In this document: piece by piece, positions 2,573 through 17,890 of the stretch
Layout: each line of letters opens with the position of its first letter
How positions within the stretch are numbered: the stretch's first letter is position 1
From: Telopea speciosissima
Taxonomy: Eukaryota; Streptophyta; Magnoliopsida; Proteales; Proteaceae
Reading direction: 5' to 3'
Assembly: GCF_018873765.1 (NCBI RefSeq)
Contig: NC_057924.1
Coordinates: 4,216,001-4,280,000 of the forward strand
Length of the DNA stretch: 64,000 nucleotides
Notes under the pieces: model-generated
Database searches by the model: none
What the model was told of the DNA's origin: nothing
The model's input: only the letters and a program-made list of their open reading frames with translations
Program-made: the position numbers and the translations under genes

Positions 2573-4017
2573 ATGGCGGTCGCAGGGAGTAGAAGACTGG
2601 ATTTATGGTTAGAGGTAGGATTTTCCGTCTTGCTCTTGTTCTTCTTCGTCGGAGCAGAAGCCGTTTGTCACCGCAGCTGCAACCTGGCTTTGGCTTCTTA
2701 CAATGTGTGGCCGGGTTGTAATATTTCATTCATCAGCCAAGTCTTGAACGCTTCGATTCCATCGATTAGGAGCTACAACCCTCAAATAAGCGATATGGAT
2801 TCTGTTGAAGCTTCCTCCAATTTAATCGTTCCATTCTCCAACTGTGATTGCATCAATGGCGAATACAATGCTCATGTGTTCCAATACCTCGTTAATACTG
2901 GTGATTCCTACCAAACTATAGTTACGCTATTTTATTCCTACCTCACGACCACGTTAACGTTGCAGAGCGGGAATATTCCAAATAATGCCCTACTCAATGT
3001 TAGCGTCAATTGCTTTTGTGGGGATAATAGGATCTCCAGTGAATATGGGTTGTTCGTGACTTACCCTCTTCGCCCGAATGATACCTTGTCTTCGGTTGCT
3101 GTTTTGTTCCACTTCAGTGATACCCAATTGGTGCAGCAGTACAACCCCACCGTGAATTTCAGCTCTGGGAGTGGTGTAGTGTTCATTCCTCACACAGGTG
3201 GCCTCTTATTCTATGCTAGCAAGTGTTGTTATCTGTTTATGATCATCCACAATTCTATAATGAGATCAAACACAAATTGAGAATGTATAAATTTGTAAAC
3301 AAAGTGGATTCAAATATGTAACTATTGTTAAACGAAAGGGGAGGGGGGGGGGGGGGGTTGAGAAAAAATATATAAGATAAGAGATTGAGTCATTGAGTTT
3401 CTAGTTTGCTGACCCTCAATCATGAACACAAAGGAGGCCATTTCTTTGTGACTGACCTAATTTTGATATAAAGCTGAATGACTGTTGCTAAACTCTAGCT
3501 TTTCCTCTTCTTTGAATAAAAAAACCTTTCCTACAACGTATAGAGCTTGGAATTGATATCTTCTAGTTTTCTTGATCTTCTTCAGATGCTAATGGAAGTT
3601 ATCTAGGCCTGGGTACAAAAATAAGGTAATTAGTATTCAATTTGCTCAATGATTTAAGCTGATCGACGCTTTATGTCTTTAGTTCTCTACCTCTTCCAGC
3701 TGTCTAACATGAATACACTATTCTCATCTTGCAGCTCAGGTACTTCAGGTGGCTTGAGTCTTCTTCACGTGCCAGTTTTATGCTTGTTATCTGAACAAGC
3801 CAATTTGGGGCATTGATATTATTTAAACTGACCATGCCCTACCTCTAAATCTAAGCAGGAATTTCAAGTGCAGCAATTATCGGCATAGCTGCTGCAGCAG
3901 CTGTGGGACTGGTTTTGTCAGGTAGTATATATTTTCTGGTTTACAGAAGGAAGAAGGTTAAAAAGCCAGCATTGCTTCGCTCAGCAACTGGACATCAATG
4001 TATATATCCTGAGCTTG
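2573..4017 (+). CDS. LysM receptor-like kinase, truncated tandem copy (ectodomain plus TM only)
   Basis: Four exons: 2573-3197, 3586-3625, 3735-3748 and 3859-4017, all GT-AG and all open. The phases match those of the intact paralog at 24470. The product has a signal peptide (hydrophobic [11 protein letters not shown], cleavage near residue 30), a three-LysM ectodomain with the CxC pairs CDC and CFC, a Gly/Ser linker and an Ala-rich transmembrane helix (GIAAAAAVGLVLSG) followed by a basic stop-transfer YRRKKVKK. In the family this ectodomain binds chitin or other GlcNAc glycans at the plasma membrane. The kinase exons 5-12 of the LYK type are absent. Relative to the paralog the ectodomain lacks a few residues before the last CxC. 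It may be a decaying duplicate, a kinase-less LysM protein, or the 5' half of a chimeric gene with the CRK exons at 15111-17890. Exon 4 ends in phase 1, compatible with the CRK exon at 15111. Confidence 0.8.
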
Positions 4018-4340
4018 GTAATCCTTCTTTTTATGGCTATATATTGCCCTTATAAAGGATGTTTCTTCAGGATTTTCCTGGGTTTTGATTATTCCAAACT
4101 GATGTATTCTCTTGCTGAAAATTTGGGACATGAGTCAAATGAACAAGACAAGACAAGATTTTCTTATGCCACTGTTTGGTAACAAAAATTTCTATGGAGA
4201 ATATCAAAATTCATATCACCATCATTATCATTGTTTTCATTGTTAAAGTTTATTTTATTTTAAATATACTTTATGTGTGAGCTATAGTTTTATGTTGTAT
4301 TACTTCCAACTGTCAATCTGTTTTATATCTTATAATATAA

Positions 4341-14488: not shown

Positions 14489-17400
14489 CTCGTCCAGAAA
14501 AATTGTTTCCATTGTTGTGCCAGTTGCCGCTACAGGAGTGATTCTTTTCTCTGTTCTCTTGTATTGTTTGCTAATCCAGAAGAAAAAGAAGAACCTGTCA
14601 AAGGAGAATGGTAGAAGCTTTGGCCCTTTTTTTCTCTCTTAAAAGGTTTATTTTTTTATTTTTTTTCTGATGAAAGTGTAATCATACAAATCACACATCA
14701 ATTCCAAAAGGTTAATCGACTTTCAGGACCGTGGAATGGCAGATATAAACAACACACACCATACGCACACACCCAGCTCACACACCACAGCTTTTTTTAT
14801 TTCTTATGAAAGTGTAACCACACAAACCTCAGACCAATCCCAAAAGGTTAACCGACTTAAAAGCTCTACTTGATCATCCAAAGTTCACTCTAATTGGTTC
14901 CTTGAACTTGATGACATGATGAAACGGTTCAATCTTTGAGTTGGAGCCGTAGATAAACAGATGTAAGATCTGAAAGATTGCATCTTTTATCTCAAATGAT
15001 GGCTAAAGAAGCTAGTGATTCAATTTCTGAGAACACAATTATAACCGTGGAGTCATTGCAATTTGAAAGGTCAAACTTCTAATTTCTCTCTGCTTTTGGC
15101 TTGTGCGTAGGTGAGAATACAATTATAACTGAGGAGTCGTTGCAATTTGATTTCAAAACGGTCCTTGCAGCCACGGAACACTTCGCCAACAAGATTGGTG
15201 AAGGGGGCTTTGGTGGCGTTTACAAGGTAAGAAGGAAGTTACAGACATGTAGTAATTGAACTAGAATTCTAGTAGGACAAAGTTTTCCTCCACCCATAGA
15301 GGACGGTTCATCCGACATCCTAGGGTTCACAAACCCCTCCTAGGGTTTTAGTATATTCCAAAATACCCTCCCGATACCCATTCCTGCCCCTTGGTGAATG
15401 GGATCCCATTCACCGTGGGTGGAGGGAAACTCGGTCCATTCTAGTATGTCAAAGTTTATTTTGCCATAGAATACAAATCTGAACTGATTAGTCATGAATT
15501 TGGAATGATTGAAGGTAGTTTTCATTTAATCATGATGTTGAATAAAAAATTCTTTCCAATAATATTTTCTGATCATGCAACTTAGGGTATTTAAAGAACC
15601 ATTAGAGGGGGGGGGGTTTAAAGTTACCTCTTTGTATCACAAGCACAGTACCTTTAAAGGAAATCAACACTTATATGGAAGATTCCTCCCATGTTAGTAG
15701 AGCTCTTAATGTTTCTGCGGATTCTATTTCAAGATGGGGCTTTGAGCTACCCTCAGTTGGTAATTTCGGGATCCTCTTTTTTGAGGATCTTCTCAGGATT
15801 GTATCTATTTTTTGGCACAACGTGGCTTAATAAATTTTCTCCTCACAGGACTTTTTGGTGCCAAAAAATATGTCTAATTTTATCGTAGTTGTGACTAGTT
15901 TAAGATCTAATCTTAGGACAATCAATTTCCCATAATAAATCAATGCAAATTAATATGAAACAATTTAAATTGGGTTTGATGGACACATAAAATCCAAACA
16001 CTAAAGCTACATAAGTTTTCTAATCACTTGTATTATATCATCAGGGTAAACTTCCTAATGGACAAGAAATTGCTGTCAAGAGACTCTCAAAAAGTTCAGG
16101 GCAAGGAGCAACAGAATTCAAGAATGAGGTTGTGTTAGTTGCAAAGCTTCAACACCGCAATCTGGTTAGGCTATTAGGATTTTGCTTCGAGAGAGAAGAA
16201 AAGATCCTGATCTATGAGTTTGTACCCAACAAAAGTCTTGACTACTTCCTATTTGGTTCGCCCCACACACACTTCTCTCTCTCTCTCTCTCTTCAGGAGT
16301 TATTTTTGCTCATGTTATTTCCATGCATTAGACTTTCCAATTATATGCAAATGTGGAAGTAAAACTGAAACTCATGATACTTCATCCTCTTTTGTCCACC
16401 CACCAACCTTTCATGATGAACTATTTGTCAATTTGAGCATATTCTAAATTCTGATTCTACCCTTTATTTGGATGACCACAGATCCTGAGAAATGCATGCA
16501 ATTAGATTGGCAGAGACGTTACAAGATCATTGAAGGGATTGCTCGTGGGCTACTTTATCTTCATGAAGATTCTCGCCTTCGAATTATTCATAGGGATCTT
16601 AAAGCAAGCAATATCTTGTTAGATGGGGAAATGAATCCCAAGATCTCAGACTTTGGGATGGCAAGAATTTTTGGTGTGGACCAAACTGAAGCAAATACAA
16701 ACAGAATAGTTGGGACTTAGTAAATTTCAAAGCCTCATTCCTTCTCATAGTTATGATTAGAGAAAGCATTTTGACGCATTCACATTTGCCAAGTTCTTAA
16801 TTACTTGGTTTTTTATCCCCCACCTCCCCACCATCACATGAAATGTTGGCTAGTACATGTAGGCTCTGGCCAGGCTTGATGAGGAAAAATAAGTGCACAA
16901 TCCTATGCACTCTAGCTGAAAAAAACTGGTATGAAGTTATCCTGAGCTGATTTTGGACAAGGCTTATAGCAGTTTATCCTAGCTGAAAATAACTGGTATG
17001 ATTTTTCATGAAGATGGTTCAGCCCATTTGGAAATAGTTGACATAAAAATATAATCTTGGTTAGGACTAGCAACCTGATATCAGTTGCCACAACTGAGGT
17101 TAGGCAACTCCCCCACCCTAACATTAAAAAAAAAAAAAAAAAAAATGGTTTTGGTTAGGCCTTGAATCTATGTGTAGCATCTGGTGATTAACTGAGGAGA
17201 AATGTGATCTAGTAGAATCTCTGTAGTTACCCTTAGTTGCTTAATTATCTTATAATAATTGATTGCAGTGGTTACATGTCTCCGGAGTATGTAATGCGTG
17301 GGCAGTTCTCAGTGAAATCAGACGTTTTCAGCTTTGGTGTATCAGTTTTGGAGATTGTAATTGGAAAGAAGAACAGTAGTTTCTATAAAGTAGACGACAC

Positions 17401-17890
17401 CGAGGACCTTTTAAGCTATGTAAGTATGGATGTCTGCAATTCTTTTTTCCTTTGTAAAAATGTATATTGCTACTATCTACTAGAACATTACATTACTAGC
17501 TCCTTCAGTTTGCCTCAAAACCTGAGGAAAACCTAAGAAACCTAATGACTTATATGTATCTTGCAGGCATGGAGGCATTGGAATGCAGGAACAGCCTTTG
17601 AGTTGATTGATCCAATCCTGAGAGAAAATTGTTCAAGAAGTGAAGTGATGAGATGCATTCATATTGGGTTATTGTGTGTTCAACAAAATGTAGCAGACAG
17701 ACCCACTACGGCGAATATAGTCCTTATATTGAGCAGCTACTTAATTACTCCTCCATCACCCTCAAAACCTGCATTTTTTGTGCCAACCAGAATGGAAACA
17801 GACATGCTTATAGAAGGGGGAGAAATGCAGGAAGCCGAGTTAAGTCAATCTGTCAATAAAGTGTCAATCACTGAGTTAGAGCCTCGGTAA
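14489..17890 (+). CDS. Cysteine-rich receptor-like kinase (CRK/DUF26 type), TM and kinase exons only
   Basis: Exons: TM exon about 14489-14610 (5' edge uncertain; [20 protein letters not shown] then basic [11 protein letters not shown]), 15111-15226, 16045-16255, 16482-16719, 17269-17419 and 17567-17890 (stop TAA). All phases join. The kinase domain is complete: [10 protein letters not shown] glycine loop, AVKRL lysine, HRDLKASN catalytic loop, DFG in [18 protein letters not shown] after the activation segment, and the C-terminal [17 protein letters not shown]. These match plant CRKs, membrane Ser/Thr kinases in stress and immune signalling. The donor after the fourth exon leaves a split Tyr codon, so the apparent TAG there is an intron start. 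No DUF26 ectodomain or signal peptide lies upstream. Instead the LysM exons of copy A precede it, separated by TE insertions. It is either the 3' part of a chimeric receptor or an orphaned kinase. Confidence 0.85.

Follow-up and report, generated by a model that had tools for sequence, protein, structure and literature searches.

A LysM receptor ectodomain and a CRK kinase joined in one open frame at a tandem-duplication junction in Telopea speciosissima

Results

A 64,000-base stretch of the Telopea speciosissima genome (hereafter the window; G000:C9:4216001-4280000, from an 823 Mb assembly in 1287 contigs) carries a gene-shaped chimera in which the first four exons of a CERK1-like LysM receptor kinase gene (LYK-A) are followed, on the same strand, by the five kinase exons of a CRK. 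As a feature of the genome the chimera is real, and it stands out because its halves, which share an orientation, meet at one rearrangement junction. In our reading (probability roughly 0.6) it is a young product of that duplication junction that most likely does not work as a glycan receptor; it would be drifting or, with lower probability, retained by virtue of its kinase.

The LYK-A exons (2573-3197, 625 nt; 3586-3625, 40 nt; 3735-3748, 14 nt; 3859-4017, 159 nt; plus strand) encode a signal peptide, a LysM ectodomain, a transmembrane (TM) segment and a juxtamembrane stretch, and end in phase 1. The CRK kinase exons K1 to K5 (15111-15226, 116 nt; 16045-16255, 211 nt; 16482-16719, 238 nt; 17269-17419, 151 nt; 17567-17890, 324 nt; plus strand) run to a stop codon at 17888-17890. 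Joined with the CRK TM exon skipped, the two sets give 838 + 1040 = 1878 nt, or 626 codons including the stop, with that terminal stop as the only one, so that an ectodomain and a kinase from different families stand in a single open frame; all eight introns of the joined model are GT-AG. An earlier reading made from the letters alone (the sequence-only reading) had proposed these open exons, with phase 1 on each side, and their coordinates and joint length were reproduced here. In the joined protein Pfam places LysM_RLK at residues 162-206 and the kinase domain at residues 304-570, and the catalytic motifs that were sought, SPEY among them, are all present, leaving the five-exon kinase intact by its motifs. 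The phase match itself is weak evidence, because it is inherited from both families: exon 4 also ends in phase 1 in LYK-B (the tandem partner described below) and in the LYK paralogue on C10, and CRK exon 3, the counterpart of K1, starts in phase 1 in all three copies read (L041, L042 and L044) of a CRK array on the same chromosome. We therefore rejected it as an argument for the chimera. The exon 1 donor of LYK-A, ACAG/GTGGCC, looks weak when judged by eye against the donor consensus; LYK-B has GTGACC and the C10 paralogue GTAATC at this place.

The LysM half belongs to the first of two copies of a duplicated segment. LYK-B (24470-34829, plus strand) is an open CERK1-like LysM receptor kinase gene with the same exons 1 to 4 plus LYK kinase exons. 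The exon 1 protein of LYK-A has four matches in the genome, namely itself, LYK-B (82%), the C10 gene (59%) and a weak one (31%). Copy A (2217-4333, plus strand) aligns with 24122-26626 in two pieces, 2217-3272 with 24122-25182 and 3443-4333 with 25737-26626 (89% and 93.5% in self-BLASTN). LYK intron 4 continues on the same strand at 8213-9186 (aligned with 26630-27643), and its final recognisable piece, at 14125-14166 (93% over 42 bases against 27646-27685), forms the right edge of the duplicated unit. LYK homology in copy A stops at 14166; no LYK kinase exons were found for LYK-A, and within the window only LYK-B has them. In intron 4 of LYK-B, just past the end of the duplicated unit, 27709-27936 forms an imperfect inverted repeat (82%) like that of a small hairpin transposon.

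The left part of copy B, 19162-23427, holds RbcX exon 1 (19197-19352, minus strand) and intergenic DNA, and matches L014:1850-5221, directly upstream of the window, in five pieces. The RbcX exons of L014 stand on the opposite strand, and Pfam recognises two of them (PF02341, 60.8 bits); in copy B exon 1 alone is seen, homology ends at 19162, and further RbcX exons lie in the L014 copy. Because the edges of homology fall at 19162 (RbcX) and 14166 (LYK intron 4), the duplicated unit runs from RbcX intron 1 to LYK intron 4, with one truncated gene per copy at the junction.

Between the LYK and CRK homologies lies a filler of ~320 bases (14167-14485), for which a genome search matched only pieces of ~40-80 bases elsewhere. 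CRK homology begins at 14486, inside the TM exon, in comparison with each of the same three array copies. This exon, CRK exon 2 (14486-14610, plus strand), is missing the native acceptor along with roughly 10 bases from its start: in the array the exon begins AAAAACAAGGAAG behind an AG acceptor, and in the window the sequence as far as AAGCTCG is unrelated. What remains is out of frame with LYK exon 4, and its inclusion was rejected, as it would shift the frame and bring a stop after 17 residues. That the exon is skipped had been assumed in the sequence-only reading; this is plausible because the breakpoint removed the native acceptor, and skipping at the RNA level is what we infer from it. 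CRKs carry two DUF26 domains in exon 1. A comparison of the L042 DUF26 frame with the window found none close to the CRK piece (sole match at 35462, E 9.9); among the three array copies, L042 alone had a long DUF26 match in the stretch examined. The CRK promoter is also absent from the piece. A 3' flank came with the kinase exons (17891-19108, plus strand): its 18078-18776 part has its best match beside an array CRK (C9:7953374-7954056, 82%) and 18833-19108 matches C9:7948243-7948557 weakly (70%). The flank ends ~50 bases short of the RbcX intron, and part of it is also a dispersed repeat, matched on other chromosomes. Two further CRK traces were seen: a short imperfect duplicate of the first bases of K1 in the intron just upstream of it (15028-15066), and an isolated CRK fragment on another chromosome (G000:C1:37091852-37092370), which covers the TM exon and stretches after it at 82-93% to the window and makes a second dispersed piece from this CRK group.

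Two transposons lie in intron 4 of LYK-A. The first is a non-LTR (non-long terminal repeat) insert resembling a long interspersed nuclear element (LINE) with broken frames (4340-8214, plus strand), flanked by the direct repeat CTTATAATATA at 4329 and 8215. The second, a terminal inverted repeat (TIR) transposon of 4918 bases (9187-14104), has 17-bp terminal inverted repeats, CAAGGTTCGAGAACTCG, and an 8-bp target duplication, GACTGTCT, at 9179 and 14105, where LYK-B carries GGCTGTCT once. With their target-site duplications and their absence from LYK-B, the two are later insertions. Together they make 8.8 kb, which accords with the earlier remark that both halves are open despite about 9 kb of transposons between them; the intron from LYK-A to K1 now measures 11,093 bases and would be ~2.3 kb without them. 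Upstream, from L014:5222 to window position 1222, two 218-base direct repeats (95.4% identical, ~6.0 kb apart) interrupt the otherwise aligned copies A and B, an LTR-type insertion that LYK-B lacks and that lies ~1.35 kb ahead of the start codon of LYK-A.

The origin of the chimera can now largely be traced. A segment with one breakpoint in RbcX intron 1 and the other in LYK intron 4 was duplicated in tandem, which produced a second LYK promoter with exons 1 to 4 and no kinase exons (LYK-A). At the junction lies a 5'-truncated CRK piece of ~4.6 kb, related to the CRK array ~3.8 Mb away, which may have been captured during repair or inserted afterwards. The product would consist of the LYK promoter and signal peptide, the LysM ectodomain with its TM segment, and then a CRK kinase; with the acceptor removed by the cut in the TM exon, RNA crossing the intron would most readily join LYK exon 4 to CRK exon 3 and encode a protein of 625 residues. 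We infer the order of these events, and transcription and splicing likewise. Three simpler accounts were rejected: a retrocopy, as introns are retained in both halves; two unrelated neighbouring genes, as LYK intron sequence reaches the junction and the CRK is cut within an exon; and an assembly duplicate of an array CRK, as the matches listed over more than 700 query bases (the window itself excluded) are at 75-90% and only short pieces reach 96%.

The LysM half bears no sign of purifying selection. Over 277 codons LYK-A and LYK-B differ synonymously at 12 and nonsynonymously at 51, giving proportions of 0.076 (pS) and 0.095 (pN) beside a noncoding divergence of 0.073 (144/1975; pN versus noncoding, P = 0.09). 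When the C10 gene is added as the third branch of a codon model, omega, the ratio of nonsynonymous to synonymous rates, is 2.5 for LYK-A and 0.65 for the other two branches (1.96 for LYK-A, 1.08 for LYK-B and 0.61 for the C10 gene with all free); omega = 1 is not rejected for LYK-A (twice the log-likelihood difference, 2dlnL, 3.0), and a single omega for all branches is rejected (2dlnL 6.05). The LYK-A exons thus appear to evolve as if neutral, and the codon data, which fit neutrality, are compatible with fast adaptive change as well.

The second LysM domain (LysM2) of LYK-A has six residues fewer than that of LYK-B between LQS and NIP, a stretch in which the C10 LYK and the aligned solved LysM receptor kinases are also longer than LYK-A. 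By alignment the lost residues probably lie in the loop that joins helix 2 to strand 2 of LysM2; in chitin-binding LysM domains, including LysM2 of AtCERK1, this loop is described as one of two contact loops (PMC3700227). Pfam finds no LysM2 match in LYK-A and does find one in LYK-B (E up to 0.001). Receptors of the CERK1/LYK type have an ectodomain of three LysM domains with CxC pairs; the cysteine pairs of LYK-A are retained (CHRSC 32, CDC 91, CFC 147) and LysM_RLK is found. An AlphaFold2 model of the exon 1 protein, built from a three-row alignment, had a mean pLDDT of 34 and was not used.

Noncoding divergence is 0.128 (381/2983) in the upstream part of the duplicated unit, against the 0.073 between LYK-A and LYK-B, and the CRK piece stands at 0.102 from L044, 0.097 from L041 and 0.147 from L042. 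The two age estimates for the duplication, 7.3% and 12.8%, disagree, and on these divergences the duplication and the CRK events cannot be ordered in time. In the comparison of 1748-2572 with 23615-24469, divergence between copies A and B falls from 0.185 (1748-2200) to 0.061 (2217-2572). This drop near 2217 may mark the edge of a gene conversion between LYK-A and LYK-B, and such a conversion could also help to explain why LYK-A is open.

Elsewhere in the window, 38642-40984 (minus strand) holds an uninterrupted frame of 780 residues that by eye resembles a DYW-type pentatricopeptide repeat protein, and 63192-63722 (plus strand) a frame that by eye resembles a ribonuclease III domain exon; both are candidates.

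Discussion

The anatomy, breakpoints, open frame, transposon insertions and codon statistics are observed. As to function, we think it most probable that the chimera does not serve as a glycan receptor with CRK output, because its LysM half lacks any sign of purifying selection and its LysM2 loop is shortened. The earlier proposal that a LysM receptor here links glycan perception to CRK output is, for the same two reasons, unsupported.

Several results weigh against a drifting junction product, and the first group concerns how open the gene still is. LYK-A is fully open, although ~2.5 frameshift indels would be expected under neutrality (P of none 0.08), and 25-47 neutral substitutions would leave it without a stop with a probability of 0.39-0.17. 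All three indels in its exon 1 are in frame, whereas of 13 noncoding indels 12 have a length not divisible by three. By our product of the two probabilities, for frameshifts and for stops (~0.01-0.03), the openness of LYK-A is mildly surprising under neutrality. Nor is an omega near 1 proof of decay, because the open partner LYK-B is also at ~1 on its own branch. The CRK exons, too, are without a frameshift, where 2.7 would be expected from the few noncoding indels (P 0.07).

The second group concerns the kinase, whose closest relatives are the CRKs of the array at C9:7.95-8.15 Mb. With L041, L042 and L044, the window CRK branch has an omega of 0.26 (profile limits ~0.13-0.5) versus 0.53 elsewhere, and omega = 1 is rejected (2dlnL 15.45). 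An eight-sequence tree of K2-K5 gives 0.27 for the same branch (neutrality, 2dlnL 10.58), the rest being no different (2dlnL 2.05), and a Fisher test finds no difference between the window CRK and the branches of the other copies (P 0.45). For this tree 12 loci were tried and five dropped: L046 and L050 (the same places as L041 and L042), L051 (K4-K5 not found), and L052 and L054 (poor K5, odd borders); L049 was kept after reading on the other strand, L048 was kept with one internal stop masked, and K1 was omitted. The exons of the N-lobe, K1 and K2, alone give 0.23 (2dlnL 10.26). The kinase half was thus under purifying selection on its own branch, at a time that cannot be dated relative to the fusion. 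Its two ends differ in this respect: strictly unique changes in the window number 2 nonsynonymous and 12 synonymous in K1-K3 and 6 and 2 in K4-K5 (Fisher P 0.008), while the other three copies, pooled, show 13 nonsynonymous to 14 synonymous in both parts. K4-K5 alone has an omega of ~0.8, indistinguishable from 1, and looks relaxed. Compared with all three array copies, K1 also has a 6-bp deletion before the P-loop and K3 a weaker donor (GTAAAT versus GTAAGT).

What the constraint means depends on when the CRK lost its 5' end. If that happened as the junction formed, most of the CRK branch may postdate the fusion, and the constraint then speaks for a working kinase; had the truncation come later, the constraint would be no argument for a working kinase in the chimera. 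The latter would hold if a whole CRK was inserted at the junction and was functional for a long time, until a deletion from LYK-A intron 4 to CRK exon 2 took its promoter and DUF26 exon and left both halves dead. We hold this course of events to be possible though rather doubtful; it overlaps with the reading that we prefer, in which the order of events is left open, and the confidence given to one is not taken from the other. It would account for an omega of 0.26 beside a neutral LysM half (the constraint being a memory of the earlier gene) and for the relaxed look of K4-K5, and a later deletion could leave a filler such as the ~320 bases at the junction. The lack of a DUF26 remnant in the window speaks against it, as does the upper limit of ~0.5 on omega: with an omega of ~0.5 before the fusion and 1 after it, almost no long neutral phase would fit, although a lower earlier omega allows some.

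Less likely still, the chimera is a functional kinase kept by selection, a natural LysM-CRK receptor kinase in which the breakpoint, by removing the acceptor of a surplus TM exon, set the frame. The LYK-A promoter, signal peptide, ectodomain and TM segment would then serve the CRK kinase, which would be conserved while the ectodomain diverged fast toward another ligand or a ligand-independent role. The rejection of neutrality on the CRK branch, K1 and K2 alone included, argues for this, as does every exon being open. K1, K2 and the TM exon contain no methionine, so that translation of a complete N-lobe has to begin further upstream, where LYK-A fits because it is in frame. The noncoding divergence of the CRK piece (0.102 and 0.097) lies between the two duplication estimates, and much of its branch may therefore postdate the junction; positive selection is possible on the LysM exons as well, as first exons of clustered LYKs in legumes can be under it (PMC5694491). 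Set against these points are a LysM half without purifying selection and short of six LysM2 loop residues, a weak exon 1 donor, an 11.1 kb intron with two transposons, an omega of ~0.8 in K4-K5 with its 6 nonsynonymous to 2 synonymous unique changes, the deletion before the P-loop and the weaker K3 donor.

It is quite improbable that the intron or a transposon provides a cryptic promoter and first exon from which the CRK piece alone is expressed, giving a cytoplasmic kinase, and that LYK-A is a separate truncated gene whose product might be, for instance, a soluble 235-residue LysM protein arising from intron 1 read-through: the exon 1 frame is open to a stop at 3278-3280 behind its weak donor, and cytoplasmic CRCKs arose at least three times by loss of ectodomain and TM (PMC6368629), but the CRK exons contain no methionine before K3 (no systematic search for a cryptic first exon was made).

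If the duplication-junction chimera is transcribed, it is a natural LysM ectodomain wired to a CRK kinase, and with LYK-B and the relatives of the kinase still in the genome the effect of a kinase swap would be directly measurable. Even if dead, it shows that a duplication junction can yield a new in-frame receptor combination, and that a breakpoint within an exon can solve the frame problem through removal of an acceptor.

Domain fusion is described as a source of receptor kinases (PMC10152718, PMC7333395). The sequence-only reading knew of no described LysM/CRK combination. Our literature search aimed at such chimeras, which covered mostly titles and the starts of abstracts and few subscription journals, found no natural one, and none appears in the available portions of PMC6039847 or PMC10868138. 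Kinase swaps in receptor kinases, CRKs included, are nevertheless in print, as the chimeric CRKs of grasses with a kinase of concanavalin-A-lectin type (Vaattovaara et al. 2019, PMC6368629) illustrate.

Each half of the chimera resembles its own family and departs from it. Like CERK1/LYK-type kinases, LYK-A has exons 1 to 4, a LysM ectodomain and a TM segment, and its nearest solved ectodomains are those of LysM receptor kinases, including AtCERK1 (4EBY/4EBZ); unlike them, it has no LYK kinase exons and a shortened LysM2 loop. Like the CRKs of the array, the CRK piece has five kinase exons, 82-97% identical per exon to L041, L042 and L044 and with the same splice borders except for the K3 donor; unlike them, it has a truncated TM exon, the 6-bp deletion in K1 and no DUF26 exon that was found. 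The CRK kinases treated together with the grass chimeras are likewise described as having five exons. The grass chimeras are a group established in Poaceae with one- or two-exon genes, whereas ours is a single locus known from genomic sequence alone; and they keep the CRK ectodomain and have had its kinase replaced, whereas here it is the CRK that supplies the kinase and the LysM receptor that supplies the ectodomain.

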